A stretch of DNA of 64,000 nt. Source: Xestospongia bergquistia (taxonomy: Eukaryota > Porifera > Demospongiae > Haplosclerida > Petrosiidae). Every line of letters begins with the position of its first letter. The first letter of the stretch is position 1. Of the stretch, positions 5,701 to 46,329 are shown piece by piece. The translations under genes were made by a program, and so were the position numbers. Below the pieces are notes generated by a model that made no database searches, was not told the origin of the DNA, and saw only the letters and a list, made by a program, of their open reading frames with translations. Location of the stretch: positions 3,224,001 through 3,288,000 of the forward strand of contig OZ014423.1 in the NCBI GenBank assembly GCA_963965975.1, read 5' to 3'.

Positions 5701-6820
5701 TTATAAAGTTAACTGCTCAGTCTAAAGGACTTTATGGCACTAACTAAATAAACAGCTATTAACAGTTTAGTAAGTTAGTTTGCATTAACGCTCTAAAGAC
5801 TTCAAGTTAAAGACTTTAGAAGGTTTAGACTATTGAGAGAAGTTTATAAAGTAAACTGCTCAGTCTAAAGGACTTTATGGCAATAACCAAAATAAGCAGA
5901 TATTAACAGTTTAGTAAGTTAGTTAGCTTTAGCGCTCTAAAGTCTTTAACGTAAAGACATTAGAAGGTTTAGACTATTGAGTGAAGTTTATAAAGTAAAC
6001 TGCTCAGTCTAATGGACTTTAGGGCTCTAACTAATTTAACAGCAACTAACGGTTTAGTAAGTTTGTTTGCATTAACGCTCTAAAGTCTTTAAGTTAAAGA
6101 CTTTAGAAGTGTTAGACTGTTGAAAGAAGTTGTTAAAGTAAACTGCTCAGTCTAAAGGACTCTATGGCAGTTACTAAATAAAGAGCTATTAACAGTTTAG
6201 TAAGTTAGTTTGCATTAACGCTCTAAAGTCTTTAAGTTAAAGACTTGAGAAGGATTACACTAATGAGAGAAGTTTATAAAGTAAACTGCTCAGTCTAAAG
6301 GACTTTATGGCACTAACTAAATAAACAGCTATAAACAGTTTAGTAAGTTAGTTTAAATTAACGCTCTAAAGTCTTTAAGTTAAAGACTTCAAAAGGTTTA
6401 GACTAATGAGAGAAGTTTAAAAAGTAAACTGCTCAGTCTAAAGGACTTTATGGCACAAACTAAATAAACAGCTATAAACAGTTTAGTAAGTTAAATTGCA
6501 TTAACGCTCTAAAGTCTTTAAGTTAAAGACTTTAGAAGTTTAGACTATTGAGAGAAGTTTAAAAGGTAAACTGCTCAGTCTAAAGGTTTTCATGGCACTA
6601 ACTAAATAAACAGCTATTAAAAGTTTAGTAAGTTAGTTTGCATTAACGCTCCAAAGTCTTTAAGTTAAAGTTTTTAGAAGGTTTAGACTGTTGAGAGAAG
6701 TTTAGAAAGTATATTACTCAGTCTAAAGGACATTGTGGCATTAACTAAATAAACAGGTATTAACAGTATAGTAAGTTAGTTTGCATTAACGCTCTAAACT
6801 CTTTAAGTTAAAGACTTTAG
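5700..6820 (+). repeat. Generic monomers between unit I and copy A
   Basis: About eight monomers without a clear partner block elsewhere in the window. They carry some private variants (AAATTGCATTAACG, GTTTAAATTAACG, AAGTTTAAAAAGTAAACTG) but no long ordered match that I could follow. Nothing other than satellite is present. Confidence 0.7.
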
Positions 6821-8978
6821 AAGGTTTAGACTAATGAGAGAATTTTATAAAGTAAACTGCTCCTTCTAAAGGACATTATGGCACTAAGTAAATAAACAGC
6901 TATTAATAGTTTAGTAAGTTAGTTTGCATTAACGCTCTAAAGTCTTTAATTTAAAGACTTTAGAATGTTTAGACTAATGAGAGAAGTTTATAAAGTAAAC
7001 TGCTCAGTCTAAAGGACGTCATGGCAGTAACTAAATAAACAGCTATTAACAGTTTAGTAAGTTAGTTTGCATAAACGCTCTAAAGTGTTTTATTTAAGGA
7101 CTATGGAAGGTTTAGACTATTGAGAGAAGTTTATAAAGTAAACTGCTCTGTGCAAAGGACTTTATGGCACCAAATAAATCGACAATATTAACAGTTTAGT
7201 AATTTAGTTTGCATTAATGCTCTAAAGTCTTTAGGTTAAAGTATTTAGAAGGTTAAGACTATTGACTGAAGTGTATAAAGTAAAATGCTCAGTGTAAAGG
7301 ACTTTATGGCGCTAACTAATGAAACAGCTATTAACAATTTAGAAAGTTAGTTTGCATTAAAGCTCTAAAATCATTAAGTTAATGACTTTAGAAGGTTTAG
7401 ACTATTGAGAGAAGTTGATCAAGTAAACTGCTCGTCTAAAGGACTTTATGGCACTAACTACATAAACAGCTGTTCACAGTTTAGTAAGTTAGTTTGCATT
7501 AACGCTCTAAAGTCTTTAAGTTAAAGACATTAGAAGATTTAGACTATTGAGAGAAGTTTATAAAGTAAACTGCTCAGTCTAAAGGACTATATGACACTAA
7601 CTAAATAAACAGCTGTTACCAGTTTAGTAAGTTAGTTTGCATTAACGCTCTAAAATCTTCAAATTAAAGACTTTAGAAGGTTTAAACTATTGAGAGAAGT
7701 TTATAAGGTAAACTGCTCTGTCTAAAGGACTTTATGGCACTAACTAAATAAACAGCTATTAAAAGTTTCGTAAGTTAGTTTGCATTAACGCTCTAAAGTC
7801 TTTAAGTTAAAGACTTTAGAAGGTTTAGACTACTGAGAGAAGTTTATAAAGTAAACTGCTCAGTCTAAAGAACTTTATGGCACTAACTATATAAGCAGCT
7901 ATTAACAGTTTAGTAAATTATTTTGCATTAATTTTCTAAAGTCTTTAAGTTAAAGACATTACAAGGTTTAGACTATTGAGAGAAGTTTATGAAGTAAACG
8001 GCGCAGTCTAAAGGACTTTATGGCACTAACTAAATAAACAGCTATTAACAGTTTAGCAAGTTAGTTTGCAATATCGTTCTGAAGTCTTTAAGTAAAAGAC
8101 TTTACAAGGTTTAGACTATTGAGAGAATTTTATAATGTAAACTCCTCAGTCTAAAGGTTTTGTGACACTATCTAAACAAACAGATATTAACAGTTTAGTA
8201 AGTTAGTTTGCATTAGCGCTCTAAAGTCTGTAAGTTAAAGACTTTAGTAATTTTAGACTATTGAGAGAAGTTTATTAAGTAAACTGCTCATTATATAGGA
8301 CTTTATGGCACTAACTAAATAAACAGCTATTAACAGTTTAGTAAGTTTGTTTCCATTAACGCTCTAAAGTCTTTAAGATAAAGACTTTAGAAGGTCTAGA
8401 CTATTGAGAGAAGTTTGTAAAGTAAACTGCTCAGTTTAAAGGACTTTATGGCACAAACTAAATAAACAGCTATTAACAGTTTAGTAAGTTAGTTTGCATT
8501 AACAGTCTAAAGTCTTTAAGTTAAAGAGTTTAGAAGGTTTAAACTGTTGAGAGAAGTTTATAAAGTAAACTGCTCATTCTAAAGGACTTTGTGGCACTAA
8601 CTAAATAAACAGCTATTAACAGTTTAGTAAGTTAATTTGCATTAACACTCGAAGGTCTTTAAGATAAAGACTTTAGAAGGTTTAGACTAATGAGTGAAGC
8701 TTATAAAGTAAACGGCTCAGTCTAAAAGACTTCATGGCACTAACTAAATAAACAGCCATTAACAGTTTAGTAAGTTAGTTTGCATTAACGCTCTAAAGTC
8801 TTTAAGTTAAAGACTTTAGAAGGTTTAGAATAATGAGAGAAGTTTTTATAGTAAACTGCTCAGTCTGAAGGACTTTATGGCACTAACTAAATAAACAGCT
8901 ATTAACAGTTTAGTAAGTTTGTTTGCATTAACACTCTAAAGTCTTTAAGTTAAAGAGTTTAGAAGGTTGAGACTATTG

Positions 8979-9691
8979 AATTATGTTTATAAAGTAAACT
9001 CCTCAGTCTAAAGGACTTTATCGCACTAACTAAATAAACAGATGTTAACAGTTTAGTAAGTTAGTTTGCATTAACGCTCTAAAGTCTTTAAGTGAAAGAG
9101 TTTAGAAGGTTTAGACTATTGAGTGAAGTGTATAAAGTAAAATGTCAGTTTAAAGGACTTTATGGCGCTAACTAATGAAGCAGCTATTAACAGTTTAGAA
9201 AGTTAGTTTGCATTAACGCTCTAAAGTCTTTAAGTTAAAGACTTTAGAAGGTTTAGACTATTGAGAGAAGTTTATAAAGTAAACTTCTCGTCTAAAGGAC
9301 TTTATGGCAGTAACTACATAAACAGCTGTTAACAGTTTAGTAAGTTTGTTTGCATTAACGCTCTAAAATCTTTAAGTTAAAGACTTTAGAAGGTTTAGAC
9401 TATTGAGAGATGTTTATAAATTAAACTGCTCAGTCTAAACGACTTTATGGCACTGACGAAATAAACAGCTGTTAACAGTTTAGTAAATTAGTTTGCATTA
9501 ACCCTCAAAAATCTTTAAATTAAAGATTTTAGTAGGTTTAGAATATTGAGAGAAGTTTATAAAGTAAACAGCTCAGTTTAAAGGACTTTATGGCACTAAC
9601 TAAATAAACAGCTATTAAAAGTTTAGTAAGTTCGTTTGCATTAACGCTCTAAAGTCTTTAAGTTAAAGACTTTACAAGGTTTAGACTATTG
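8979..9691 (+). repeat. Five-monomer segment, single copy in A
   Basis: Begins at AATTATGTTTATAAAG and contains the private variants AAAATGTCAGTTTAAAGG, AACTTCTCGTCTAAAGG and TAACCCTCAAAAATC. In copy B the same segment starts at 24921 (offset 15942) but is present three times in tandem. Copy A therefore shows the state before amplification. Confidence 0.85.
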
Positions 9692-10649
9692 AGAGAACTT
9701 TATAAAGTAAACTCCTCAGTCTAAAGGATTTGTGGCACAAACTAAATAAACAGATATTAACAGTCTAGTAAGTTTTTTGCCTTAACGCTGTAAAGTCTGT
9801 AAGATAAAGACTTTAGTAGACTTAGACTGTTGAGAGAAGTTGATGAAGTAAACTGCTCAGTCTAAAGGACTTTATGGCACTAACTAAATAAACAGCTGTT
9901 AACACTTTAGTAAGTTAGTTTGCATTAACGTTCTAAAGTCTTTAAGTTGAAGACTTTAGAACTTTTAGACTATTGAGAGAAGTTTATAAAGTAAACTGCT
10001 CAGTCTAAAGGACTTTATGGCACTAACTAAATGAACAGCTATTAACAGTTTAGTAGGTTAGTTTGCGTTAACGCTCTAAAGTCTTTAAGTTAAATACTTT
10101 ACAATGTTTAGACTATTTAGAGAAGTTTATAAAGTAAACTGTGCAGTTTAAAGGACTTTATGTCACCAAATAAATAAACAGGTATTAACATTTTAGTAAG
10201 TTCGTTTGCATTAACGCTCTAAAGTCTTTAAGTTAAAGACTTTAGAAGGTTTAGACTATTGAGAGAAGATTATAAAGTAAACTGCTAAGTCTAAAGAACA
10301 TTATGGCACTAACTAAATAAACAGCTATTAACAGTTTAGTAAGTTAGTTTGCATTAGCGCTCTAAAGTCTTTAAGTTAAAGACTTTAGAAGGTTTACACT
10401 ACTGAGAGAATTTTATAAAGTAAACTGCTCAGTCTAAAGGACTTTATGGCACTTACTAAATATACAGCTATTAACAGTTTAGTAAGTTAGTTTGCATTAA
10501 CGCTCTAAAGTCTTTAAGGTAAAGACTTTAGAAGGTTTAGACCAATGAGAGAAGTTTAAAAAGTGAACTGCTCAGTCTAAAGGACTTTATGGCACTAAAT
10601 AAGTACACAGCTATTAGCTATTTTGTAAGTTAGTTTGCATTAACGCTCT

Positions 10650-11510
10650 AAAGTCTTTAAGTTAAAGACTTTAGAAGGTTTAGACTATTGAGAGATGTTT
10701 ATAAAGTAAACTGCTCAGTCTAAAGAACTTTGTGGCACTAACTATATAAGCAGCTATTAACGGTTTAGTAAATTATTTTGCATTAATTTTCTAAAGTCTT
10801 TAAGTTAAAGACTTTACAAGGTTTAGACTATTGAGAGAAGTTTATGAAGTAAACGGCGCAGTCTAAAAAACTTTATGGCACTAACTAAATAAACAGCTTT
10901 TAAAAGTTTCGTAAGTTAGTTTGCATTAACGCTCTAAAGTCTTTAAGTTAAAGACTTTAGAAGGTTTAGACTACTGAGAGAAGTTTATAAAGTAAACTGC
11001 TCAGTCTAAAGAACTTTATGGCACTAACTATATAAGCAGCTATTAACAGTTTAGTAAATTATTTTGCATTAATTTTCTAAAGTCTTTAAGTTAAAGACTT
11101 TACAAGGTTTAGACTATTGAGAGAAGTTTATGAAGTAAACGGCGCAGTCTAAAGGACTTTATGGCACTAACTAAATAAACAGCTATTAACAGTTTAGCAA
11201 GTTAGTTTGCAATATCTTTCTGAAGTCTTTAAGTAAAAGACTTTACAAGGTTTAGACTATTGAGAGAATTTTATAATTTAAACTCCTCAGTCTAAAGGTT
11301 TTGTGACACTATCTAAACAAACAGATATTAACAGTTTAGTAAGTTAGTTTGCATTAGCGCTCTAAAGTCTGTAAGTTAAAGACTTTAGTAATTTTAGACT
11401 ATTGAGAGAAGTTTATTAAGTAAACTGCTCATTATAAAGGACTTTATGGCACTAACTAAATAAACAGCTATTAACAGTTTAGTAAGTTAGTTTCCATTAA
11501 CGCTCTAAAG
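10650..11510 (+). repeat. Six-monomer insertion in copy A (about 857 bp)
   Basis: Copy B passes directly from sequence matching 10.65 kb to sequence matching 11.51 kb at about 28020, and the offset drops from 17359 to 16502 (857 bp, six monomers). The same uninterrupted order occurs again at about 29640-29760, which supports B as the older state. The inserted monomers carry CTATATAAGCAGC, AATTTTCTAAAGTC and TGTGACACTATCTAAAC. These also sit at 7.86-8.3 kb (offset 3141 at 8161/11302), so the source was probably within copy A. Confidence 0.75.
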
Positions 11511-12280
11511 TCTTTAAGTTATAGACTTTAGAAGGTTTACACTATTGAGAGAATTTTATAAATTAAACTGCGCAGTCTAAAGGACTTTATGGCACTAACT
11601 AAATAAACAGCTATTAACAGTTTAGTAAGTTAATTTGCATTAAATTTTAAAGTCTTTACGTTAAAGACTATAGAAGGTTTAGACTATTGAGAGAATTTTA
11701 TAAAGTAAACTGCTCAGTCTAAAGGACTTTATGGCGCTAACTTATGAAACAGGTATTAACAGTTTAGTAAGTTAGTTTGCATGAACGCGCTAAAGTCTTT
11801 AAGTTAAAGACTTTACAAGGTTTAGACTATTGAGAGAAGTTTATGAAGTAAACTGTGCAGTCTAAAGGACTTTATTAAACTAACTAAATAAAGAGTTATC
11901 GACATTTTAGTAAGTTAGTTTGCATTAACGCTCTAAAGTCTTTATGTTAAAGACTTTAGAAGTTTTAGACTATTGAGGGAAGTTCATAAAGTAAACTGCT
12001 CAGTCTAAAGGACTTTATGGTACTAACTAAATAAACAGCTATTAACAGTTTAGTAAGTTAGTTTGCATTAACGCTCTAAAGTCTTTAAGTTAAAGACTTT
12101 AGAAGGTTTATACTATTGAGAGAAGTTTATAAAGTAAACTGCTCAGTCTAAAGGACTTTGTGGTACTAAATAAATAAACAGCTGTTAACAGTTTAGTAAG
12201 TTACTTTGCATTAACGCTCTAAAGTCTTTAAGTTAAAGACTTTAAAAGGTTTACTCTAATGAGAGAAGTTTACAAAGTTA

Positions 12281-12398
12281 ACTGCTCAGTCTAAAGGACT
12301 TTATGGCAGTAACTAAATAAACAGCTATAAACAGTTTAGTATGTTAGTTGGCAATAACACTCTAAAGTCTTTAAGTTAAAGAATATAGAAGGAAATAA
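12281..12398 (+). repeat. 118-bp short monomer, type T1 (copy A, first)
   Basis: Lacks about 25 bp between AGAAGG and ATAAAG, which removes TTTAGACTATTGAGAG. The junction reads GAATATAGAAGGAAATAAAG. The same deletion, with the same flanking variants, is at 28782-28899 in copy B. A sister version is at 13686-13802 and 30330-30446. The loss takes out the left arm of the junction-spanning inverted repeat. Confidence 0.88.
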
Positions 12399-12970
12399 AG
12401 TGCTCAGTCTAAAGGATTTAATGGGACTATCTAAGTACACAGTTATTAACTGTTAAGTAAGTTAGTTTGCATTGATGCTCTAAAGTCTTTGAGTTAAAGA
12501 CTTTAGAAGGTTAAGACTATTGAGAGAAGTTTATAAAGTAAACTGCGCAGTCTAAAGGACTTTTTGGCACTAAATAAATAAACAGCTATTAACAGTTTAG
12601 TAAGTTAGTTTGCATTCACGCTCTAAATTCTTTAATTTAAAGACTTTAGAAGGTTTAAACTATTGACTGAAGCTTATAATGTAAACTGCTCAGTCTAAAG
12701 GACTTAATGGGTCTAACTAAGCAAACTGCTATTAACAGTTTAGTAAGTTTGTTTGCAATAACGCTCTAAAGTCTTTAAGTTAAAGCCTTTACAAGGTTTA
12801 GGCTATTTAGTGAAGTTTATAGAGTAAACTGCTCATTCTAAAGGACTTAATGGCTCTAACTAATTAAACAGCTATTGACAGTTTAGTAAGTTAGTTTGCA
12901 TTAACGCTCTAAAGTCATTAAGATAAAGACTTTAGAAGGTTTAGACCAATGAGAGAAGTTTAAAAAGTAA

Positions 12971-13113
12971 ACTGCTCAGTCTAAAGGACTTTATGGCACT
13001 AACTAAATAAACAGCTATTAACAGTTTAGTAAGTTAGTTTGCATTAACGCTCTAAAGTCTTTAAGTTAAAGACTTTAGAAGGTTTAGACTATTGAGAGAA
13101 TTTTATATAATAA
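12971..13113 (+). repeat. Reference monomer (near-consensus 143-bp unit)
   Basis: I use this copy as the reference because bases 1-130 match the consensus exactly as I read it; only the tail differs at a few positions (TTTTATATAATAA instead of GTTTATAAAGTAA). Layout in monomer coordinates: 1-10 ACTGCTCAGT; 10-16 TCTAAAG; 23-40 ATGGCACTAACTAAATAA; 45-63 CTATTAACAGTTTAGTAAG; 69-82 TTGCATTAACGCTC, with the only CpG; 81-109 perfect palindrome; 113-123 TTTAGACTATT; 124-143 purine-rich GAGAGAAG and TATAAAG tail. The three forward frames stop within about the first 40 bases (for example ATG GCA CTA ACT AAA TAA). The three reverse frames stop within about the first 30 bases of the reverse strand. Confidence 0.95.
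13051..13079. repeat. 29-bp perfect palindrome inside each monomer
   Basis: The left arm TCTAAAGTCTTTAA and right arm TTAAAGACTTTAGA are exact reverse complements around one central G (monomer 81-109). This is the strongest dyad in the unit and is present in most copies along the window. Common variants change the centre (AAATTAAAG, still nearly symmetric) or break one arm (AAGGTAAAG, AAGTCCTTAAG). It could extrude as a hairpin or be bound by a dimeric protein; neither is shown by sequence alone. Confidence 0.95.
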
Positions 13114-13685
13114 ACTGCTTATTCTAAAGGACTTTATGGCGCTAACTAATGAAACAGCTATTAACAGTTTAGTAAGTTAGTTTGCATTAACAGTCTAAAG
13201 TCTTTAAGTTAAAGACTTTAGAAGGTTTAGACTATTGAGAGAAGTTTATAAAGTAAACTGTGCAGTCTAAAGGACTTTATGGCACTAACTAAATAAACAG
13301 CTATCGACATTTTAGTAAGTTAGTTTGCATTAACGCTGTAAAGTCTTTATGTTAAAGACTTTAGAAGTTTTAGGCTATTGAGAGAAGTTTATAAAGTAAA
13401 CTGCTCAGTCTAAAGGACTTTATGGCACTAACTAAATGAACAGCTATTAACAGTTTAGTAAGTTAGTTTGCATTAACGCTCTAAAGTCTTTAAGTTAAAG
13501 ACTTTAGAAGGTTTAGACTATTGAGAGAAGTTTATAAATTAAACTGCTCAGTCTAAAGGACTTTGTGGTACTAACTAAATAAACAGCTATTAACAGTTTA
13601 GTAAGTTACTTTGCATTAACGCTCTAAAGTCTTTAAGTTAAAGACTTTAGAAGGTTTACTCTAATGAGAGAAGTTTACAAAGTAA

Positions 13686-13802
13686 ACTGCTCAGTCTAAA
13701 GGACTTTATGGCACTAACTAAATAAACAGCTATTAACAGTTTAGTAAGTTAGTTTGCATTAACGCTCTTAGACTTTCAGTTAAAGACTTTAGAAGGAAGT
13801 AA
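13686..13802 (+). repeat. 117-bp short monomer, type T1 (copy A, second)
   Basis: Same deletion as at 12281, with junction GAAGGAAGTAAAGTGCTCAG and an extra one-base loss in CTCTTAGACTTTCAG. It lies 1404 bp (ten monomers less the deletion) after the first, in a ten-monomer sub-repeat that shares GGGACTATCTAAGTACAC, GACTGAAGCTTATAATG and GGGTCTAACTAAGCAAAC. Confidence 0.88.
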
Positions 13803-14231
13803 AGTGCTCAGTCTAAAGGACTTAATGGGACTATCTAAGTACACAGTTATTAACAGTTAAGGAAGTTAGTTTGCATTGACGCTCTAAATTCTTTAAGTTA
13901 AAGACTTTAGAAGGTTAAGACTATTGAGAGAAGTTTATAAAGTAAACTGCGCAGTCTAAAGGACTCTTTGGCACTAAATAAATAAAGAGCTATTAACAGT
14001 TTAGTTAGTTAGTTTGCATTCACGCTTTAAATTCTTTAAGTTAAAGACTTTAGAAGTTTTAAACTATTGACTGAAGCTTATAATGTAAACTGCACAGTCT
14101 AAAGGACTTAATGGGTCTAACTAAGCAAACTGCTATTAACAGTTTAGTAAATTTGTTTGCAATAACGCTCTAAAGTCTTTAAGTTAAAGGCCTTACAATG
14201 TTTAGGCTATTTAGTGAAGTTTATAGAGTAA

Positions 14232-14541
14232 ACTGCTCAGTCTAAAGGACTTTATGGCGCTAACTAATTAAACAGCTATTGACTGTTTAGTAAGTTAGTT
14301 TGCATTAACTCTCTAAAGTCATTAAGTTAAAGACTTTAGAAGGTTTACACTAATGAGAGAAGTTTATAAAGTAAACTGCTCAGTCTAAAGGACTTTATGG
14401 CGCTAACTAATTAAACAGCTATTGACTGTTTAGTAAGTTAGTTTGCATTAACTCTCTAAAGTCATTAAGCTAAAGACTTCAGAAGGATTAGACTGTTGAG
14501 AGAAGTTTATAAAGTAAACTGCTCAGTCTAAAGGACTTAAT
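14232..14541 (+). repeat. Recent single-monomer duplication
   Basis: Monomers starting at 14232 and 14375 (exactly 143 apart) share the private combination GGCGCTAACTAATTAAACAG, TATTGACTG, TTAACTCTCTAAAG and GTCATTAAG, and are identical over about the first 95 bases. They diverge in the palindrome arm and tail. In copy B (about 30900) only one such monomer is present, so this looks like a one-step duplication in A with an exchange point inside the palindrome. Confidence 0.8.
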
Positions 14542-15232
14542 GGCACTAACTAAGCTTTCAGTTATTAACTCTTTAGTAAGTTAGTTTGCATTAATGCTCT
14601 AAAGTCTTTAAGTTAAAGGCTTTAGAAGGTTTACACTAATGAGTGAAGTTTATAAAGTAAACTGCTCAGTCTAAAGGACTTTATGGCACTAACGAAAAAA
14701 ACAGCTATGAACAGTTTAGTAAGATAGTTTGCATTAACGCTCTAAAGTCTTTAAGTTAAAAACTTTAGAAGGTTTACACTATTGAAAGAAGTTTATAAAG
14801 TAAAATGCTCAGTCTAAGGAACTTTATGGCACTAACTAAATAAAAAGATATTAACAGTTTAGTAAGTTAGTTTGCATTAACGCCCCAAAGTCTTTAAGGT
14901 AAAGACTTTAGAAGGTTTAGACTATTGAGTTAAGTTTATAAAGTAATCTTCGCAGTCTAAAGGATTTTATGGCGCTAAATATTTAAACAACTATTAAAAG
15001 TTTAGTAAGATAGTTTGCATTAACTCTCTAAAGTCGTTAAGTTAAAGACTTTAGAACTTTTAGAATATTGAGAGAAGTTTATAAAGTAAACTGCTCAGTC
15101 TAAAGGACTTTATGGCACTAACTAAATAAACTGCTATCGACATTTTAGTAAGTTAATTTGCATTAACGCTCTAAAGTCTTTATGTTAAAAACTTTAGAAG
15201 GTTTAGACTATTGACAGAAGTTTATAAAGTAA

Positions 15233-15367
15233 ACTGCTCAGTCTAAAGGAGTTTATGGCACTAACTAAATAAACAGCTATTAGTAAGTTAGTTTGCATTA
15301 ACGCTCTAAAGTCTTTAAGTTAAAGACTTTAGAAGGTTTAGACCAATGAGAGAATTTGATAAAGTAA
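15233..15367 (+). repeat. 135-bp short monomer, type T2 (copy A)
   Basis: Loses 8 bp in the middle: CTATTAACAGTTTAGTAAG becomes CTATTAGTAAG, a deletion between short TTA/TAG repeats. It also carries GGAGTTTATGG and GACCAATGAGAG. The same monomer is at 27505-27639 and 32018-32152. Three exact reappearances make it a good lineage marker. Confidence 0.9.
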
Positions 15368-15541
15368 ACTGTTCAGTGTAAAGGCATTTATGGCTCTAAC
15401 TAAATAAACAACTATTAACAGTTTAGTAAGTTAGTTTGCATTAACGCTCTTAAGTCATTAAGTTAAAGACTTTAGAATGTTTACACTATTGAGAGAAGTT
15501 TATAAAGTAAACTGCTCATTTTAAAGGACTTTATGGCCAAA

Positions 15542-18500
15542 ACTAATTAAACAGATATTAACAGTTAAGCAAGTTAGTATGCATTACCGCTCTAATGTCT
15601 TTAAGGTAAAGACTTTAGAAGGTTTAGACTATTGACTGAAGTTTATAAAGTAAACTGCTCAGTCTAAAGGACTTTATGGCGCTTACTAGTTAAATAGCTT
15701 TTAACAGTTTAGTAAGTTAGTTTGCATTAACGCTCTAAAGTCTTTAAATTAAAGACTTTAGAATGTTTAGACTTTTGAGAGAAGTTGATAAAGTAAACTG
15801 CTCAGTTTAAAGGACTTTATGTCAATAACTAAATAAACAACTATTAACAGTTTGATAAGTTATTTTGCATTAACGCTCTAAAGGCTTTGACTTAAAGACT
15901 TTAGAAGGTTTAGACTATTGAGAGAAGTTGATAAATTGAACTGCTCTGTCTAAAAGACTTTATGGCACTTACTAAATAAACAGCTGTTAACAGTTTAGTG
16001 AGTTAGTTTGCATTAACGCTATAAATTCTTTAAGTCAAAGACTTTAGAATGTTTAGATTGTTGAGAGACGTTTATAAAGTAAACTGCTCAGTCTAAAGGA
16101 CTTTATGGCACTAACTAAATAAACAGCTATTAACAGTTTAGTAAGTTAGTTTGCATTAACGCTCTAAAGTCTTTAAGTTAAAGACTTTAGAATATTTACA
16201 CTATTGATAGAAGTTTATAGAGAAAACTGCTCAGTCTAAAGGACTTCATGGCACTAACTAAATAAACATCTATTAACAGTTTAGTAAGTTAGTTTGCATT
16301 AACGCTCTAAAGTCTGTAAGTTAAAGACTTTAGAAGGTTTAGACTATTGAGAGCAGTTTATAAAGTAAACTGCTAAGTCTAAAGGACTTTATGGCACTAA
16401 CTAAATAAACAGCTATTAACAGTTTGGTTAGTTAGTTTGCATTAACGCTCTAAAGTTTTTAAGTTAAAGACTTTGGAAGGTTTAGAATATTGAGAGAAGT
16501 TTATAAAGTAAACTGCTCGGTATAAAGGACTTTATGGCACTAACTAAACAAGCAGATATTAACAGTTGAGTAAGTTAGTTTGCATTAATACTCTAAAGTC
16601 TTTAAGGTAAAGACATTAGAAGGTTTAGACTGTTGAGTGAAGTTTGTAAAGTAAACTTCTTAGTCTAAAGGACATTATGGCGCTGACTAATTAAACAGCT
16701 ATTAACAGTTTAGTAAGTTAGTTTGCATTAACGCTACAAAGTCTTTGAGTTAAAGACTTTAGAAGGTATAGACTAATGAGAGAATTTTATAATGTAAACT
16801 GCTTAGTCTAAAGGACTTTATGGCACTAAATAAATAAACAGCTATTAACAGTTTAGTAAGTTATTTTGCATTAACGCTCTAAAGTCTTTAAGTTAAAGAC
16901 TTTAGAAGGTTTAGACTATTGAGAGAAGTTGATAAAGTAAAATGCTCAGCCTAAAGGACTTTATGGCACTAACTAAATAAACAGCTATTGACAGCCTAGT
17001 AAGATAGTTTGCCTTAACGCTCTAAAGACTTTAAGTTAAATACTTTAGAAGTTATAGACTAATGAGAGAAGTTTATAAAGTAAACTGCTCAGTCTAAAGG
17101 ACTTTCTGGTACTGACTAAATAAACAGATATTAACAGTTTTGTAAGTTAGTTTGCATTAACGGTCTAAAGTCTTTAAGTTGAAGACTTTAGAAGGTTTAG
17201 ACTATTGAGAGAATTTTATAAAGTAAACTGCTCAGTCTAAAGGACTTTATGGCCCTAACTAAATAAACAGCTATTAACAGTTTAGTAAGTTAGTTTGCAT
17301 TGACGCTTTAAACTCTTTAAGTTAAAGACTTTAGAAGGTTTAGACTAATGAGAGAAGTTTATAAAGTAAACTGCTCAGTCTAAAGGACTTTATGGCACTA
17401 ACTAAATAAAGAGATATTAACAGTTTAGTAAGTTAGTTTGCATTAACGCTCTAAAGTCTTTAAGTTAAAGTCTTTAGAAGGTTTAGACTATTGAGAGATG
17501 TTTATAAAGTAAACTGCCAGCCTAAAGGACTTATGGCACTAACTAAATAAAAAGCTATTAAGGGTATAGTAGGTTAGTTTGCATTAACGCTATAAAGTAT
17601 TTAAGTTAAAGACTTTACAAGGTTTTGACTAATGAGAGAAGATTATAAAGTAAACTGCTCAGTCTAACGGACTTTATGGCACTAACTAAATAAACAGCTA
17701 TTAACAGTTCAGTAAGTTAGTTTGCATTAACGCTGTAAAGTGTTTAAGTTAACGACTTTAGAAGGTTTAGACTATTTATAGAAGTTGATAAAGTAAACTC
17801 CTCAGTCTAAAGGACTTTATGGCACTAACTAAATAAACAGCTATCAACAGTTTAGTAAGTTAGTTTGCATTAACGCTCTAAAGTGTTTAAGTTAAAGACT
17901 TTAGAAGGTTTAGACTATTGAGAGAAGTTTATAATTTAAACTGCTCTGTCTAAAGGACTTAATGGCACAAACTAAGCATTCAGTTATTAACAGTTTAGTA
18001 AGTTAGTTTGCATTAACGCTCTAAAGTCTTTAAGTTAAAGACTTTACAAGGTTTAGACTTTTCAGTGAAGTTTATAAAGTAAACTGCTCAGTCTAAAGGA
18101 CTTTATGGCACTAACTATATAAAAAGTTATTAACAGTTTAGTAAGATAGTTTGCATTCCGCTTTAAAGTCTTTAAGTTAAAGACTTTAGAAGGTTTAGAC
18201 TAATGAGGGAAGTCTATGAAGTAAACAGCCCAGTTTAAAGCACTTTATGGCAATAACTAAATAAACGGCAATTAACAGTTTAGTAAGTTAGTTTGCATTA
18301 ACGCTCTAAAGTCTTTAAGTTAAAAACTTCAGAAGGTTTAGTCTATTGAGAGAAGTTTATAAAGTAAACTGCTCAGTCTAAAGGACTTTTTGGCCCTAAC
18401 TAAATAAATAGCTGTTAACAGTTTAGTAAGTTAGTTTGCATTAACGCTCTAAAGTCTTTAAGTTAAAGACTTTAGAATGTTTAGACTATTCAGAGAAGTT

Positions 18501-26346: not shown

Positions 26347-27050
26347 AATTATGTTTATAAAGTAAACTCCTCAGTCTAAAGGACTTTATGGCACTAACTA
26401 GATCAACAGATGTTAACAGTTTACTAAGTTAGTTTGCATTAACGCTCTAAAGTCTTTCAGTGAAAGAGTTTAGAAGGTTTAGACTATTGAGTGAAGTGTA
26501 TAAAGTAAAATGTCAGTTTAAAGGACTTTATGGCGCTAACTAATGAAGCAGCTATTAACAGTTTAGAAAGTTAGTTTGCATTAACGCTCTAAAGTCTTTA
26601 AGTTAAAGACTTTAGAAGGTTTAGACTATTGAGAGAAGTTTATAAAGTAAACTTCTCGTCTAAAGGACTTTATGGCAATAACTACATAAACAGCTGTTAA
26701 CAGTTTAGTAAGTTTGTTTGCATTAACGCTCTAAAGTCTTTAAGTTAAAGACTTTAGAAGGTTTAGACTATTGAGAGATGTTTATAAATTAAACTGCTCA
26801 GTCTAAAGGACTTTATGGCACTGACAAAATAAACAGCTGTTAACAGTTTAGTAAATTAGTTTGCATTAACCCTCAAAAATCTTTAAATTATAGATTTTAG
26901 TAGGTTTAGACTATTGAGAGAAGTTTATAAAGTAAACAGTTCAGTTTAAAGGACTTTATGGCACTAACTAAATAAACAGCTATTAAAAGTTTAGTAAGTT
27001 CGTTTGCATTAACGCTCTAAAGTCTTTAAGTTAAAGACTTTACAAGGTTT
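26347..27050 (+). repeat. 713-bp unit, tandem copy 3 of 3
   Basis: Starts exactly 713 bp after copy 2. Its second monomer reads CTTTCAGTGAAAGAGTTTAG, close to the copy A version at about 9091 (AGTGAAAGAGTTTAG), whereas units 1 and 2 have the consensus TTAAAGACTTTAG there. Its right end runs into the sequence that also follows the single copy in A (GGATTTGTGGCACAAAC, 9727 and 27095), so this unit keeps the original right flank. Confidence 0.88.
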
Positions 27051-27336
27051 AGACTATTGAGAGAACTTTATAAAGTAAACTCCTCAGTCTAAAGGATTTG
27101 TGGCACAAACTAAATAAACAGATATTAACAGTTTAGTAAGTTTTTTGCCTTACGCTGCAAAGTCTGTAAGATAAAGACTTTAGTAGACTTAGACTGTTGA
27201 GAGAAGTTGATGAAGTAAACTGCTCAGTCTAAAGGACTTTATGGCACTAACTAAATAAACAGCTGTTAACACTTTAGTAAGTTTGTTTGCATTAACGTTC
27301 TAAAGTCTTTAAGTTGAAGACTTTAGAACTTTTAGA

Positions 27337-27714
27337 CTATTGAGAGAAGTTTATAAAGTAAACTGCTCAGTCTAAAGGACTTTATGGCACTAACTAAATA
27401 AACTGCTATCGACATTTTAGTAAGTTAATTTGCATTAACGCTCTAAAGTCTTTATGTTAAAAACTTTAGAAGGTTTAGACTATTAAGAGAAGTTTATAAA
27501 GTAAACTGCTCAGTCTAAAGGAGTTTATGGCACTAACTAAATAAACAGCTATTAGTAAGTTAGTTTGCATTAACGCTCTAAAGTCTTTAAGTTAAAGACT
27601 TTAGAAAGTTTAGACCAATGAGAGAATTTGATAAAGTAAACTGTTCAGTGTAAAGGCATTTATGGCTCTAACTAAATAAACAGCTATTAACAGTTTAGTA
27701 AGTTAGTTTGCATT
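27337..27714 (+). repeat. Conversion-like patch in copy B
   Basis: On both sides, B follows A at offsets of 17368 (left) and 17359 (right). Between them it instead matches 15.07-15.4 kb of A at an offset of 12272, including CTGCTATCGACATTTTAG, the 135-bp short monomer and GTGTAAAGGCATTTATGGCT. Because the flanking offset changes by only 9 bp, about what the 8-bp shorter monomer would cause, a stretch of about 350 bp seems to have been replaced rather than added. Edges are limits set by identical sequence on either side. Confidence 0.75.
27505..27639 (+). repeat. 135-bp short monomer, type T2 (in the copy B patch)
   Basis: Same 8-bp deletion and side variants as the 15233 copy. It lies inside the segment of B that should, by position, match 10.1-10.3 kb, which is the main evidence for the conversion-like patch. 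Confidence 0.9.
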
Positions 27715-28781
27715 AGCGCTCTAAAGTCTTTAAGTTAAAGACTTTAGAAGGTTTACACTACTGAGAGAATTCTATAAAGCAAACTGCTCAGACTAAAGGA
27801 CTTTATGGCACTTACTAAATATACAGCTATTAACAGTTTAGTAAGTTAGTTTGCATTAACGCTCTAAAGTCTTTAAGGTAAAGACTTTAGAAGGTTTAGA
27901 CCAATGAGAGAAGTTTAAAAAGTGAACTGCTCAGTCTAAAGGACTTTATGGCACTAAATAAGTACACAGCTATTAGCTATTTTGTAAGTTAGTTTGCATT
28001 AACGCTCTAAAGTCTTTAAGTTACAGACTTTAGAAGGTTTACACTATTGAGAGAATTTTATAAAGTAAACTGCGCAGTCTAAAGGACTTTATGGCACTGA
28101 CTAAATAAACAGCTATTAACAGTTTAGTAAGTTAATTTGCATTAAATTTTAAAGTCTTTACGTTAAAGACTATTGAAGGTTTAGACTATTGAGAGAATTT
28201 TATAAAGTAAACTGCTCAGTCTAAAGGACTTTATGGCGCTAACTAATGAAACAGGTATTAACAGTTTAGTAAGTTAGTTTGCATGAACGCGCTAAAGTCT
28301 TTAAGTTGAAGACTTTACAAGGTTTAGACTATTGAGAGAAGTTTATGAAGTAAACTGTGCAGTCTAAAGGACTTTATTAAACTAACTAAATAAACAGTTA
28401 TCGACATTTTAGTAAGTTAGTTTGCATTAACGCTCTAAAGTCTTTATGTTAAAGACTTTAGAAGTTTTAGACTATTGAGGGAAGTTCATAAAGTAAACTG
28501 CTCAGTCTAAAGGACTTTTGGTACTAACTAAATAAACAGCTATTAACAGTTTAGTAAGTTAGTTTGCATTAACGCTCTAAAGTCTTTAAGTTAAAGACTT
28601 TAGAAGGTTTATACTATTGAGAGAAGTTTATAAAGTAAACTGCTCAGTCTAAAGGACTTTGTGGTACTAACTAAATAAACAGCTGTTAACAGTTTAGTAA
28701 GTTACTTTGCATTTACGCTCTAAAGTCTTTAAGTTAAAGACTTTAAAAGGTTTACTCTAATGAGAGAAGTTTACAAAGTTA

Positions 28782-28899
28782 ACTGCTCAGTCTAAAGGAC
28801 TTTATGGCAGTAACTAAATAAACAGCTATAAACAGTTTAGTATGTTAGTTGGCAATAACACTCTAAAGTCTTTAAGTTAAAGAATATAGAAGGAAATAA
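28782..28899 (+). repeat. 118-bp short monomer, type T1 (copy B, first)
   Basis: Counterpart of the 12281 monomer at an offset of about 16501, with the same GAATATAGAAGGAAATAAAG junction and the same following GGGACTATCTAAGTACAC. The shared breakpoint supports common descent of the two blocks. Confidence 0.88.
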
Positions 28900-30329
28900 A
28901 GTGCTCAGTCTAAAGGACTTAATGGGACTATCTAAGTACACAGTTATTAACTGTTAAGTAAGTTAGTTTGCATTGATGCTCTAAAGTCTTTGAGTTAAAG
29001 ACTTTAGAAAGTTAAGACTATTGAGAGAAGTTTATAAAGTAAACTGCGCAGTCTAAAGGACTTTTTGGCACTAAATAAATAAACAGCTATTAACAGTTTA
29101 GTAAGTTAGTTTGCATTCACGCTCTAAATTCTTTAATTTAAAGACTTTAGAAGGTTTAAACTATTGACTGAAGCTTATAATGTAAACTGCTCAGTCTAAA
29201 GGACTTAATGGGTCTAACTAAGCAAACTGCTATTAACAGTTTAGTAAGTTTGTTTGCAATAACGCTCTAAAGTCTTTAAGTTAAAGACTTTAAAAGGTTT
29301 AGGCTATTTAGTGAAGTTTATTGAGTAAACTGCTCATTCTAAAGGACTTTATGGCGCTAATTAATTAAACAGCTATTGACAGTTTAGTAAGTTAGTTTGC
29401 ATTAACGCTCTAAAGTCATTAAGTTAAAGACTTTAGAAGGTTTACACTACTGAGAGAATTTTATAAAGTAAACTGCTCAGTCTAAAGGACTTTATGGCAC
29501 TTAATAAATAAACCGCTATTAACAGTTTAGTAAGTTAGTTTGAATTAACGGTCTAAAGTCTTTAAGTTAAAGACTTTAGAAGGTTTAGACCAATGAGAGA
29601 AGCTCAAAAAGTAAACTGCTCAGTCTAAAGGACTTTATGGCACTAAATAAGTAGACAGCTATTAGCTATTTTGTAAGTTAGCTTGCATTAACGCTCTAAA
29701 GTCTTTAAGTTACAGACTTTAGAAGGTTTAAACTATTGAGAGAATTTTATAAAGTAAACTGCGCAGTCTAAAGGACTTTATGGCACTAACTAAATAAACA
29801 GCTATTAACAGTTTAGTAAGTTAGTTTCCATTAACGCTCTAAAGTCTTTAAGTTAAAGACTTTAGAAGGTTTAGACTATTGAGAGAATTTTATATAATAA
29901 ACTGCTTATTCTAAAGGACTTTATGGCGCTAACTAATGAAACAGCTATTAACAGTTTAGTAAGTTATTTTGCATTAACAGTCTAAACTCTTTAAGTTAAA
30001 GACTATAGAAGGTTTAGACTATTGAGAGAAGTTTATAAAGTAAACTGTGCAGTCTAAAGGACTTTATGGCACTAACTAAATAAACAGCTATCGACATTTT
30101 AGTAAGTTAGTTTGCATTAACGCTGTAAAGTCTTTATGTTAAAGACTTTAGAAGTTTTAGGCTATTGAGAGAAGTTTATAAAGTAAACTGCTCAGTCTAA
30201 AGGACTTTATGGGACTAACTAAATGAACAGCTATTAACAGTTTAGTAAGTTAGTTTGCATTAACGCTCTAAAGTCTTTAAGTTAAAGACTTTAGAAGGTT
30301 TAGACTATTGAGAGAAGTTTATAAATTAA

Positions 30330-30446
30330 ACTGCTCAGTCTAAAGGACTTTGTGGTACTAACTAAATAAACAGCTATTAACAGTTTAGTAAGTTACTTTG
30401 CATTAACGCTCTTAGACTTTCAGTTAAAGACTTTAGAAGGAAGTAA
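30330..30446 (+). repeat. 117-bp short monomer, type T1 (copy B, second)
   Basis: Counterpart of the 13686 monomer at an offset of 16644, with the same CTCTTAGACTTTCAG and GAAGGAAGTAAAGTG. It lies 1547 bp after the first in B against 1404 in A, so copy B has one more full monomer between them. Confidence 0.88.
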
Positions 30447-32017
30447 AGTGCTCAGTCTAAAGGACTTAATGGGACTATCTAAGTACACACTTATTAACAG
30501 TTAAGGAAGTTAGTTTGCATTGATGCTCTAAATTCTTTAAGTTAAAGACTTTAGAAGGTTAAGACTATTGAGAGAATTTTATAAAGTAAACTGCGCAGTC
30601 TAAAGGACTCTTTGGCACTAAATAAATAAAGAGCCATTAACAGTTTAGTTAGTTAGTTTGCATTCACGCTTTAAATTCTTTAAGTTAAAGACTTTAGAAG
30701 TTTTAAACTATTGACTGAAGCTTATAATGTAAACTGCACAGTCTAAAGGACTTAATGGGTCTAACTAAGCAAACTGCTATTAACAGTTTAGTAAATTTGT
30801 TTGCAATAACGCTCTAAAGTCTTTAAGTTAAAGGCTTTACAATATTTAGGCTATTTAGTGAAGTTTATAGAGTAAACTGCTCAGTCTAAAGGACTTTATG
30901 GCGCTAACTAATTAAACAGCTATTGACTGTTTAGTAAGTTAGTTTGCATTAACTCTCTAAAGTCATTAAGTTAAAGACTTTAGAAGGTTTAGACTATTGA
31001 GAGTAGTTTATAAAGTAAACTGCTCAGGCTAAAGGACTTTATGGCACTAAATAAGTATGCAGCTATTGAAACTTTAGTAAATTTGTTTGCATTAACCACC
31101 TAAAGTCTTTAAGTTAAAGACTTTAAAAGGTTTAGACTATTAAGTGAAGTTTATAAAGTAAAATGCTCAGTCAAAAGAACTTTATGGCACTAACTAAATA
31201 AAGACATATTGACAGTTTAGTAAGTTAGTTTGCATTAACGATCTAAAGTATTTAAGGTAAAGACTTTAGAACGTTTAGACTATTGAGAGAAGTTTGTAAA
31301 GTAAACTGCTCAGTCTAAAGGAGTTTATGGCACTAACTAAATAAACAGCTATTAACAGTTTAGTTAGTTAGTTTGCATTAACGCTCTAAAGTCTTTAAGT
31401 TAAAGACTTCAGAAGGATTAGACTATTGAGAGAAGTTTATAAAGTAAACTGCTCAGTCTAAAGGACTTAATGGCACTAACTAAGCTTTCAGTTATTAACT
31501 CTTTAGCAAGTTAGTTTGCATTAATGCTTTAAGTCTTTAAGTTAAAGGCTTTAGAAGGTTTACACTAATGAGTGAAGTTTATAAAGTAAACTGCTCAGTC
31601 TAAAGGACTTTATGCACTAACGAAAAAAACAGCTATTAACAGTTTAGTAAGATAGTTTGCATTAACGCTCTAAAGTCTTTAAGTTAAAAACTTTAGAAGG
31701 TTTACACTATTGAAAGAAGTTTATAAAGTAAAATGCTCAGTCTAAGGAACTTTATGGCACTAACTAAATAAACAGATATTAACAGTTTAGTAAGTTAGTT
31801 TGCATTAACGCTCCAAAGTCTTTAAGGTAAAGACTTTAGAAGGTTTAGACTATTGAGTTAAGTTTATAAAGTAATCTTCGCAGTCTAAAGGATTTTATGG
31901 CGCTAAATATTGAAACAGCTATTAAAAGTTTAGTAAGTTAGTTTGCATTAACTCTCTAAAGTCGTTAAGTTAAAGACTTTACAACTTTTAGACTATTGAG
32001 AGAAGTTTATAAAGTAA

Positions 32018-32152
32018 ACTGCTCAGTCTAAAGGAGTTTATGACACTAACTAAATAAACAGCTATTAGTAAGTTAGTTTGCATTAACGCTCTAAAGTCTT
32101 TAAGTTAAAGACTTTAGAAGGTTTAGACCAATGAGAGAATTTGAGAAAGTAA
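32018..32152 (+). repeat. 135-bp short monomer, type T2 (copy B, expected position)
   Basis: Positional counterpart of the 15233 monomer in copy B, with the same CTATTAGTAAG deletion. The monomer with CTGCTATCGAC that precedes it in A is missing here. Confidence 0.88.
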
Positions 32153-35100
32153 CCTGTTCAGTGTAAAGGCATTTATGGCTCTAACTAAATAAACAACTAT
32201 TAACAGTTTAGTAAGTTAGTTTGCATTAACGCTCTAAAGTCATTAAGTTAAAGACTTTAGAATGTTTACACTATTGAGAGAAGTTTATAAAGTAAACTGC
32301 TCAGTCTAAAGGACTTTATGGCACTAACTAAATAAACAGCTATTAACAGTTTAGTAAGTTAGTTTGCATTAACGCTCTAAAGTGTTTAAGTTAAAGACTT
32401 TAGAAGGTTTAGACTATTGAGAGAAGTTTATAAAGTAAACTGCTCAGTCTAAAGGACTTAATGGCACAAACTAAGCATTCAGTTATTAACAGTTCAGTAA
32501 GTTAGTTTGCATTAACGCTCTAAAGTCTTTAACTTAAAGACTTTACAAGGTTTAGACTTTTCAGTGAAGTTTATAAAGTAAACTGCTCAGTCTAAAGGAC
32601 TTTATGGCACTAACTATATAAACAGTTATTAACAGTTTAGTAAGTCAGTTTGCATTCCGCTCTAAAGTCTTTAAGTTAAAGACTTTACAAGGTTTAGACT
32701 AATGAGGGAAGTCTATGAAGTAAACAGCCCAGTTTAAAGCACTTTATGGCAATAACTAAATAAACGGCTATTAACAGTTTAGTAAGTTAGTTTGCATTAA
32801 CGCTCTAAAGTCTTTAAGTTAAAAACTTCAGAAGTTTTAGTCTATTGAGAGAAGTTTATAAAGTAAACTGCTCAGTCTAAAGGACTTTTTGGCACTAACT
32901 AAATAAACAGCTGTTAACAGTTTAGTAAGTTAGTTTGCATTAACGCTCTAAAGTCTTTAAGTTAAAGACTTTAGAATGTTTAGACTATTGAGAGAAGTTT
33001 ATAAAGTAAACTGCTCATTTTAAAGGACTTTATGGCCAAAACTAATTAAACAGATATTAACAGTTAAGCAAGTTAGTATGCATTACCGCTCTAATGTCTT
33101 TAAGGTAAAGACTTTAGAAGGTTTAGACTATTGACTGAAGTTTATAAAGTAAACTGCTCAGTCTAAAGGACTTTATGGCGCTTACTAATTAAATAGCTTT
33201 TAACAGTTTAGTAAGTTAGTTTGCATTAACGCTCTAAAGTCTTTAAATTAAAGACTTTAGAAGGTTTATACTTTTGAGAGAAGTTGATAATGTAAACTGC
33301 TCAGTTTAAAGGACTTTATGTCACTAACTAAATAAACAACTATTAACAGTTTGATAAGTTATTTTGCATTAACGCTCTATAGGCTTTGACTTAAAGACTT
33401 TAGAAGGTTTAGACTATTGAGAGAAGTTGATAAATTGAACTGCTCTGTCTAAAAGACTTTATGGCACTTACTAAATAAACAGCTGTTAACAGTTTAGTGA
33501 GTTAGTTTGCATTAACGCTATAAATTCTTTAAGTCAAAGACTTTAGAAGGTTTAGATTGTTGAGAGACGTTTATAAAGTAAACTGCTCAGTCTAAAGGAC
33601 TTTATGGCACTAACTAAATAAACAGCTATTAACAGTTTAGTAAGTTAGTTTGCATTAACGCTCTAAAGTCTTTAAGTTAAAGACTTTAGAATATTTACAC
33701 TATTGAGAGAAGTTTATAGAGAAAACTGCTCAGTCTAAAGGACTTCATGGCACTAACTAAATAAACAGCTATTAACAGTTTAGTAAGTTAGTTTGCATTA
33801 ACGCTCTAAAGTCTGTAAGTTAAAGACTTTAGAAGGTTTAGACTATTGAGAGCAGTTTATAAAGTAAACTGCTCAGTCTAAAGGACTTTATGGCACTAAC
33901 TAAATAAACAGCTATTAACAGTTTGGTTAGTTAGTTTGCATTAACGCTCTAAAGTTTTTAAGTTAAAGACTTTAGAATGTTTAGAATATTGAGAGAAGTT
34001 TATAAAGTAAACTGCTCAGTCTAAAGGACTTTATAGCACTAACTAAATAAACAGATATTAACAGTTGAGTAAGTTAGTTTGCATTAATGCTCTAAAGTCT
34101 TTAAGGTAAAGACATTAGAAGGTTTAGAATGTTGAGTGAAGTTTATAAAGTAAACTTCTTAGTCTAAAGGACATTATGGCGCTGACTGATTAAACAGCTA
34201 TTAACAGTTTAGTAAGTTAGTTTGCATTAACGCTACAAAGTCTTTGAGTTAAAGAGTTTAGAAGGTACAGACTAATGAGAGAATTTTATAATGTAAACTG
34301 CTTTGTCTAAAGGACTTTATGGCACTAAATAAATAAACAGCTATTAACAGTTTAGTAAGTTAGTTTGCATTAACGCTCTAAAGTCTTTAAGTTAAAGACT
34401 TTAGAATATTTACACTATTGAGAGAAGTTTATAGAGAAAACTGCTCAGTCTAAAGGACTTCATGGCACTAACTAAATAAACAGCTATTAACAGTTTAGTA
34501 AGTTAGTTTGCATTAACGCTCTAAAGTCTGTAAGTTAAAGACTTTAGAAGGTTTAGACTATTGAGAGCAGTTTATAAAGTAAACTGCTCAGTCTAAAGGA
34601 CTTTATGGCACTAACTAAATAAACTGCTATTAACAGTTTAGTAAGTTAGTTTGCATTAACGCTTTAAACTCTTTATGTTAAAGACTTTAGAAGGTTTAGA
34701 CTAATGAGAGAAGTTTATAAAGTAAACTGCTCAATCTAAAGGACTTTATGGCACTAACTAAATAAAGAGATATTAACAGTTTAGTAAGTTAATTTACATT
34801 AACTCTCTAAAGTCTTTAAGTTAAAGTCTTTAGAAGGTTTAGACTATTGAGAGATGTTTATACAGTAAACTGCCAGCCTAAAGGACTTTATGGCACTAAC
34901 TAAATAAAAAGCTATTAAGAGTATATTAAGTTAGTTTGCATTAACGCTATAAAGTATTTAAGTTAAAGACTTTACAAGGTTTAGACTAATGAGAGAAGAT
35001 TATAAAGTAAACTGCTCAGTCTAATGGACTTTATGGCACTAACTAAATAAACAGCTATTAACAGTTTAGTAAGTTAGTTTGCGTTAACGCTGTAAAGTCT

Positions 35101-37131
35101 TTAAGTTAACGACTTTAGAACGATTACACTATTCAGAGGAGTTTATAAAGTAAACTGCTCAATCTAAAAGACTTTATGGCACTAACTAAATAAACAGCTA
35201 TTAACGGTTTAGTAAGCTAGTTTGCATTAACGCTCTAAAGTCTTTAAGTTGAAGACTTTAAAAGGTTTAGACTATTGAGAGAAGTTTATAAAGTTAACTG
35301 CTCAGTCTAAAGGACTTGATGCCACTAACTAAATAAATAGCTATTAAGAGTTTAGTAAGTTAGTTTGCATTAACGCTCTAAAGTCTTCAAGTTAAACACT
35401 TTAGAATGTTTAGACTATTGAGAGTAGTTTATAAAGTAAACTGCTCAGTCTAAAGGACTTTATGGCACTTACTAAATAAACAGCTATTAACAGTTTAGTA
35501 AGTTTATTTGCATTAACGCTCTAAATTCTTTAAGTTAAAGACTTTAGAAGGTTTAAACTATTGAGAGAAGTTTATAAAGTAAACTCCTCAGTCTAAAGGA
35601 CTTTATGGCACTAACTAAATAAACAGCTGTTTACATTTTAGTAAGTTAGTTTGCATTAACGCTCTAATGTCTTTAAGTTAAAGACATTAGAAGGATTAGA
35701 CTATTAAGAGAAGTTTATAAAGTAAACTGCTCAGTCTAAAGGACTTTATTGCACTAACTAAACAAACAGATATTTACTGTTAAGTAATTTAGTTTGCATT
35801 AACGCTCTAAAGTCTTTAAGGTAAAGACTTTTGAATGTGCAAACTATTTAGTGAATTTTATAAGTGAACTGCTCAGTCTAAAGGACTTTATGGCGCTAAC
35901 TAATTAAACAGCTATTAACTGTTTAGTAAGTTAGTTTGCATTAACGCAATAAAGTCTTTAAGTTAAAGACTTTGGAATGTTTACACTATTGAGAGAAGTA
36001 GATAAAGTAAACTGCTCAGTCTAAAGAACTTTATGGCACTAACTAAATAAACAGACATTAACTGTTTAGTAAGTTAGTTTGCATTAACGCTCTAAAGTCT
36101 TTAAGTTAAACACTTTAGAAGGTTTAGACTATAGAGAAAAGATTATAAAGTAAACTGCTCAGTCTAAAGGACTTTAAGGCACTAACTATATAAACAGCTA
36201 TTAACAGTTTAGTAAGTTAGTTTGCATTAACGTTCTAAAGTCTTTAAGTTAAAGACTTTAGAATGTTCAGAGTATTGAGAGAATTATATAAAGTAAACCG
36301 CTCAGTCTAAAGGACTTTTTGGCACTAACTAAATAAACAGATATTAACAGTCTAGTAAGTTATTTTGCATTAATGCTCTAAAGTCTTTAACGTAAAAACA
36401 TTGGAAGGTTTAGACTATTGAGTGAAGTTCATAAATTGAACTGCTTAATCTAAAGGACTTTATGGCGCTAACTAATTAAGCAGCTATTAACCGTTTAGTA
36501 AGTTAGTTTGCATTAACGCTTTAAAGTCTTTAAGTTAAAGACTTTAGTAGGTTTAGACTAATTAGAGAATTTTTTAAAGTAAACTGCTCAGTCTAAAGGA
36601 CTTTATGGCACTAACTAAATAAACAGCTATTAACAGTCTAGTAAGTTAGTTTGCATTAACACTCTAAAGTCTTTAAGTTAAAGACATTAGAAGGTTTAGA
36701 CTAATGAGAGATGTTTATAAAGTAAACTGCTCAGTCTAAAGGACTTTATGGCACTAACTATATAAAGAGCTATTAAGAGTTTAGTAAGTTAGTTTGCATT
36801 AACGCTCTAAAGGCTTTAAGTTAAAGACTTTAGAAGGTTTAGACTATTGAGAGGAGTTGATAAAGTGAACTGCAGAGCATAAAGAACTTTATGTTACTAA
36901 CGAAATAAACAGCTATTAACAGTTTAGTAAGTTAGTTTGCATTAACGCTCTAAAGTCTTTAAATTAAAGACTTCAGAAGGTTTAGACTATTGAGAGAAGT
37001 TTATAAAGTAAACTGCTCAGTCTAAAGGACATTATGGCACTAACTAAATAAACAGCTAATAACAGTTTAGTAAGCTACTTTGCTTTAACGCTCTAAAGTC
37101 TTTAAGTTAAAGACTTTAGAAGGTTTAGACT

Positions 37132-43880: not shown

Positions 43881-43982
43881 AAAGCTATTAACAGTTTAGT
43901 AAGTTTGTTTGCTTTAACACTTTAAAGTCTTTAAGTAAAGACTTTAAGAGCTTTAGACTACTGAGAGGAGTTTATAAAGTAA

Positions 43983-44091
43983 ACTCTTCAGTCTAAAGGA
44001 CTTTATGGCGCTAACTAAATAAACAGCTTCTAAAGTCTTTAAGTTAAAGACTTTAGAAGGTTTAGACTATTGAGAGAAGTTTATGAAGTAA
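43983..44091 (+). repeat. 109-bp short monomer, type T4 (first)
   Basis: Loses 34 bp: AAACAGCT is joined to TCTAAAGTC, which removes monomer positions 47-80 including the CpG and TTTGCATTAAC. The 29-bp palindrome is kept. The identical junction AAACAGCTTCTAAAG is found at 46215-46323. Confidence 0.92.
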
Positions 44092-46323: not shown

Positions 46324-46329
46324 ACTGCT

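Follow-up and report, generated by a model that had tools for sequence, protein, structure and literature searches.

A Long, Nearly Adjacent Duplication in a 143-bp Satellite Array of the Sponge Xestospongia bergquistia

The 143-bp Satellite Array

The window analyzed here is a stretch of 64,000 bases (positions 3224001–3288000 of contig OZ014423.1, termed C13), and a further 100 kb was taken on each side of it. The window has a G+C content of approximately 30% and consists entirely of a head-to-tail satellite with a 143-bp monomer. The array outreaches the window and lies near the middle of the 6,494,400-base contig.

1–64000 of the window, + strand: 143-bp satellite array (TRF, k-mer profile, and monomer tiling)
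C13:3194695–3302337: full array, 107.6 kb, 741 monomers (monomer tiling)

The monomer matrix was built without the inverted and partial pieces beyond C13:3302400. The 741 placed monomers agreed with the consensus at 93.2% of monomer positions, and two monomers differed by 12.7% on average, with gaps scored as differences. There are 450 monomer starts in the window, for which only 9 of 450 spacings fell outside 136–147. The array is interrupted for more than 40 bases in a single place, to the left of the window, by 2.5 kb of non-satellite sequence (C13:3203600–3206091). A transposase frame in this segment matches Pfam DDE_Tnp_1_7 (E = 9.8e-69) and resumes past a stop in the assembly; we take it to be of the piggyBac type. 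Past the right edge, after approximately 4.7 kb of other sequence, satellite pieces reappear at C13:3307085–3310330, some of them inverted.

The genome searched comprises 146.46 Mb in 21 contigs. A 60-base consensus pattern gave 15,760 matches (9374 + 6386) at no more than 3 mismatches, and those listed include contigs C4, C5, C6, C7, C10, and C11. A second 60-base pattern gave 1514 exact matches (961 + 553), of which those listed were all on C4, spanning 4194583–4456189. The first pattern matched 215 times within the window against the 450 monomer starts; extrapolating this ratio genome-wide, the family would amount to approximately 33,000 monomers, or 4.7 Mb. On C13 and C7, the two contigs of known length, the arrays are both near the contig middle, while among the matches listed for C6 and C10 the satellite lies far apart on each contig. 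On C10, the matches are on the minus strand at 2441863–2448315 and 2590121–2599786 and on the plus strand at 2797567–2807421, which suggests that the C10 arrays are inverted relative to each other. The 143-bp array is probably centromere-like, and we infer a centromeric role for it. A scan for the CENP-B box gave 0 hits on either strand, Rfam gave no match within the window, and 1001 bases of the window had no match in a plasmid collection. No report of the 143-bp satellite was found in the literature search, and the array itself may be undescribed so far.

Positions 55–83 of the consensus monomer form a perfect 14+1+14 inverted repeat, whose 23-bp core is slightly better conserved than the remainder (95.0% vs. 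92.9%). Double compensating changes were found in 9 of 8060 cells, against 626 with single-side changes. Because double compensating changes are so few, there is no evidence for a selected hairpin.

Extent of the Duplicated Block

The initial annotation had described a tandem macro-duplication of about 100 monomers, in which ordered rare variants of 6.8–22 kb recur in 22.7–37 kb. This pattern is confirmed in the assembled sequence, and its copies were found to comprise 107 and 101 monomers, the monomers of a left copy (A) reappearing in order in a right copy (B). The 31-mers occurring exactly twice in the window were used as anchors; in this rare 31-mer map, which had been proposed as a check, they are collinear and line up on the off-diagonal, and the edges were refined as follows.

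6739–21965, + strand: left copy A, 107 monomers (nos. 237–343), 31-mer anchors at 6607–21861
21966–22680, + strand: spacer between the copies, five monomers (nos. 344–348) without a clear positional partner after B
22681–37037, + strand: right copy B, 101 monomers (nos. 349–449), 31-mer anchors at 22549–36932

Copy A thus extends from approximately 6607–6739 to 21965, and copy B from approximately 22549–22681 to 37037. Both edges are sharp. At the left edge, at a lag of 112, monomers 228–236 have 0–1 rare states in common with their counterparts and monomers 237–241 have 2–10. At the right edge, pairing at a lag of 106 stops at 343/449, and the spacer monomers 344–348 at this lag exhibit 12, 11, 11, 15, and 17 differences of 143. 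The monomer register is kept across the junction, with a spacing of 143 at 22109–22967.

The offset between the copies is exactly 15942 (112 monomers) from 6607 to 8963, where it is carried by 646 31-mers over 2357 bp; the constancy over more than 2 kb that had been claimed is borne out, and past approximately 2.4 kb the offset varies. The shifts are mostly of whole monomers, to which the larger steps come close, and bring the offset to 15071. An offset of 17368/17359 at 9091–10654 is followed by 16502/16501 at 11614–12907, then by 16787, 16644, and 16928, by a crossed pair of 17499/14499, and finally by 15071 at 19545–21861. The crossed segments of A, 15491–16804 and 17855–19080, correspond to overlapping stretches of B.

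The arrangement comprises two ordered, nearby copies that are far more alike than the background, as in an adjacent segmental duplication. Given the five spacer monomers, a perfect two-copy tandem would call for subsequent loss or replacement and was rejected, so that "nearly adjacent" duplication is the strict description: homology does not fill the junction on both sides. A higher-order-repeat array was also rejected, as two copies were found instead of many homogenized ones.

Similarity of the Two Copies

Without any selection, a rare-variant partner in the other copy was found for 75 of the 107 A monomers and 76 of the 101 B monomers. From the best-match table, 78 pairs were then chained by hand, with poor matches dropped, which kept 78 of the 107 A monomers and left 29 unpaired. 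These pairs differed at 196 of 11,003 sites (1.78%, bootstrap 1.47–2.10%), a value that describes the paired part alone and should be read beside the unselected fractions. Nine displacements of the partner, of between 1 and 10 monomers, gave differences of 10.4–11.7%. A cheap-gap global alignment of A against B was also tried and rejected, as it mis-paired several stretches at 88–90% identity (e.g., 9775–11481); its overall identity of 95.5% understates the homology, and monomer pairing was used instead.

Three 60-mers private to the block gave two matches each genome-wide at no more than 3 mismatches, both within the window, and their pairs, taken from different parts of the block, had offsets of 14499, 15071, and 16501. 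Neither the 108-kb array nor the genome-wide 60-mer matches revealed a third copy of the block, such as the further copies beyond the window for which a search had been proposed.

The finding of only two copies is what would be expected if A and B were two haplotypes of one 15-kb stretch falsely set in tandem by the assembly, and a divergence of 1.78% may be no more than normal heterozygosity for a sponge. A second long offset could likewise be an assembly duplicate: C7:4863001–4872573 and 4913428–4923000 (9,573 bp, offset 50,427 bp) differ by 15 substitutions and no indel (0.16%, Poisson 0.09–0.26%), and over the 9,573 bp compared this pair offers a lead to either a young long duplication or such a duplicate. 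For A and B, we nevertheless regard an assembly origin as unlikely. No N bases were found within the array, hence there is no scaffold gap at the junction, and accurate long reads should be able to tell apart monomers that differ by approximately 11%. The five extra monomers at the junction, in place of a bare abutment, argue weakly in the same direction.

The good pairs SIGNIFICANCE (n = 264, those with most rare variants in common) formed 33 collinear runs, 14 of them at a lag of 90–127, against 0 runs in 200 shuffles of the monomer order. Their lags are bimodal: 153 pairs are no more than 40 monomers apart, 7 fall at 41–84, 93 at 85–130, and 11 beyond, and the lag of the macro-duplication is an outlier in this array. 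Many small conversions or duplications, with no single long event, might have brought about the likeness of the two stretches, considering that local duplications of 5–30 monomers are common throughout the array and that 27388–27667 resembles a short non-allelic transfer. Such an origin is extremely improbable in view of the drop to 7 good pairs at lags 41–84 against 93 at 85–130, and of an order largely preserved over approximately 100 monomers. Furthermore, the divergence of the 14 chained segments (0.70–2.80%) is of one size, as predicted for one event followed by drift. Substitutions are spread a little unevenly among the pairs (variance/mean 1.64), which makes a degree of subsequent exchange likely.

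Nested Events and Relative Age

Several smaller events lie within or between the copies.

11879–14114, + strand: ten-monomer-lag duplication in A, six monomers, 4.65% (monomer pairing)
10736–11592, + strand: six monomers present in A only (nos. 265–270), 857 bp (monomer pairing)
24823–26961, + strand: five-monomer unit, three times in B and once in A (8881–9593), period approximately 713 bp
27388–27667, + strand: B monomers 382–383 matching A monomers 296–297 (from 15116), which are not their positional partners (31-mers and monomer pairing)

The ten-monomer-lag duplication has a counterpart in B at 28808–30758 (three monomers, 6.98%) and predates the macro-duplication. Neighboring units of the tripled five-monomer unit differ at 0.70–0.85%, and the triplet of B represents a later local expansion. 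The A-only insert is partly a further copy of 7738–8308 in A (0.88%) and of 23680–24250 in B (mean 0.5%). Divergence accordingly descends from 4.65%/6.98% for the duplication present in both copies, through 1.78% for the macro-duplication, to 0.70–0.88% for those in one copy only. Judged from these comparisons, the order of events given by divergence largely agrees with that given by occurrence in a single copy or in both, with one ambiguous case. This is a 21-monomer-lag duplication in A (monomers 299–305/320–326, 2.73%) that has a single mixed counterpart in B, where monomers 422–425 are closer to A 299–302 than to A 320–323 (chained pair).

The stretch at 27388–27667 suggests a patch derived from exchange or conversion between the copies, and the A-only insert is equally close to the version of B and that of A. 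Because of this patch, the closeness of the insert to the B version, and the mixed counterpart of the 21-monomer-lag duplication, A and B have probably exchanged sequence since the duplication.

Other local duplications in the window, at lags of 12 to 30, differ at 0.98–2.19%, so the macro-duplication is unusual in length and not in age. Local duplications are dense at 40036–46349 of the window (lags 12–30, mean difference 0.7–3.4%), where two monomer spacings of 107 bp were also observed. In the local comparison designated "left lag20", monomers outside the window were skipped. When the array was divided into bins of 40 monomers, a near-identical partner (3 differences or fewer) was found for a share of 0.50–0.82 of the monomers in six of the seven bins between 7.2 and 46.9 kb and of 0.30 in the seventh (35.6–41.3 kb); the six bins further left gave 0.10–0.33 and the six further right 0.12–0.47. 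This share peaks mid-array, and the distance to the consensus exhibits no gradient.

Probable Origin of the Duplication

We consider it likely that a block of approximately 112 monomers (15.9 kb) in a centromere-like array was duplicated once, in direct orientation and nearly adjacent, by homology-guided repair. A break in the array would have been followed by repair guided by homology, either because misaligned sister chromatids underwent unequal exchange or because break-induced replication re-entered approximately 112 monomers upstream; sequence does not distinguish the two. Homology-guided repair is favored over blind end joining because the junction is in monomer register. Gains and losses, mostly of whole monomers, then took place in each copy, and the mismatch of the spacer after B may reflect later loss or replacement at the B end. 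Both the mechanism and the correctness of the assembly are what we infer here.

A 15-kb circle that was excised and reinserted beside its source could also yield neighboring copies in register, with the unmatched spacer perhaps marking the insertion site. In sequence alone this looks the same as unequal exchange, but it takes two steps, and a third or permuted copy did not turn up in the array or among the genome-wide 60-mer matches, which makes it quite improbable. For the favored single duplication by homology-guided repair, the suggestion in the initial annotation that exchange or amplification acts on very long segments stands insofar as one very long segment was doubled. The accompanying notion of "layered expansion", a term that occurs in 12 papers alongside centromere and alpha satellite, is not established by two copies and a mid-array peak in near-identical partners, as the distance to the consensus lacks graded symmetric layers.

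Comparison with Known Systems

A 22.7-kb adjacent segmental duplication and an adjacent duplication of 10 CentC monomers have been reported for maize centromere 10, in a paper whose abstract gives double-strand break repair as the most plausible mechanism (PMC4806543). As in maize, where CentC monomers are described as pairing by position, a long stretch of DNA, here probably centromeric, is doubled beside itself. The 22.7-kb maize unit is described as running from CR1 coding sequence to a CR1 LTR, whereas the sponge unit is pure satellite, and the CentC case involves 10 monomers in a plant as against approximately 112 in an animal. For two satellite arrays of pea CEN6, long parallel lines have been attributed to the duplication of large portions (PMC10027222); self-comparison of the present array again gives long parallel lines, although the pea host is a plant with a centromere given as 81.6 Mb. 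Alpha satellite higher-order repeats, as generally outlined, resemble the sponge block in that a multi-monomer unit is repeated with its internal order retained, but here there are two copies of unequal monomer content, 1.78% apart where paired. A 59-mer is named in the title of PMC11276891 as the largest higher-order-repeat unit in primates, and beside it a block of approximately 112 monomers is indeed longer than usual units, as the initial annotation had held.

The event class, long duplication in a centromere, is already known from plants; the present duplication is ordinary in kind and notable for its length and host. No paper on sponge centromere satellites was found among the matches listed in the literature search, and a term search of the sponge chromosome paper PMC7385117 yielded "centromer" a single time and neither "satellite" nor "tandem repeat". 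Tentatively, and with rather less than even confidence, sponge centromere arrays may grow by rare very long duplications (15.9 kb on C13, 50.4 kb on C7) atop frequent short ones, leaving a dated nested history. If true, this would place plant-like, repair-driven centromere growth in an early-branching animal lineage. Slightly diverged long duplications record how satellite arrays change; the 107.6-kb array is small enough to be read whole, and single events can be ordered in it because divergence and nesting largely agree.

Other Genome Observations

Fragments of mitochondrial-type COX1, some with an internal TAG or TAA, were observed at C6:3154917–3155898 and 3199148–3200446, approximately 0.17–0.21 Mb from the first listed C6 satellite match (3366418), and they are probably nuclear copies of mitochondrial DNA. 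Taken together with the NK-type homeobox cluster of a demosponge and the mitochondrial code of sponges, the following features suggest a demosponge. The RuBisCO large chain had no match in the genome, which argues against a plant whose plastid is included. In a contig that carries COX1, the gene reads through with 9 TGA codons as its sole stops, the pattern of a mitochondrial code in which TGA = Trp. The genome also contains a macroH2A-like gene, in which histone and macro domains share one open frame of 381 aa. For the homeobox, 47 scored matches were obtained, seven of which lie within a stretch of approximately 40 kb on C13 (145926–186068).
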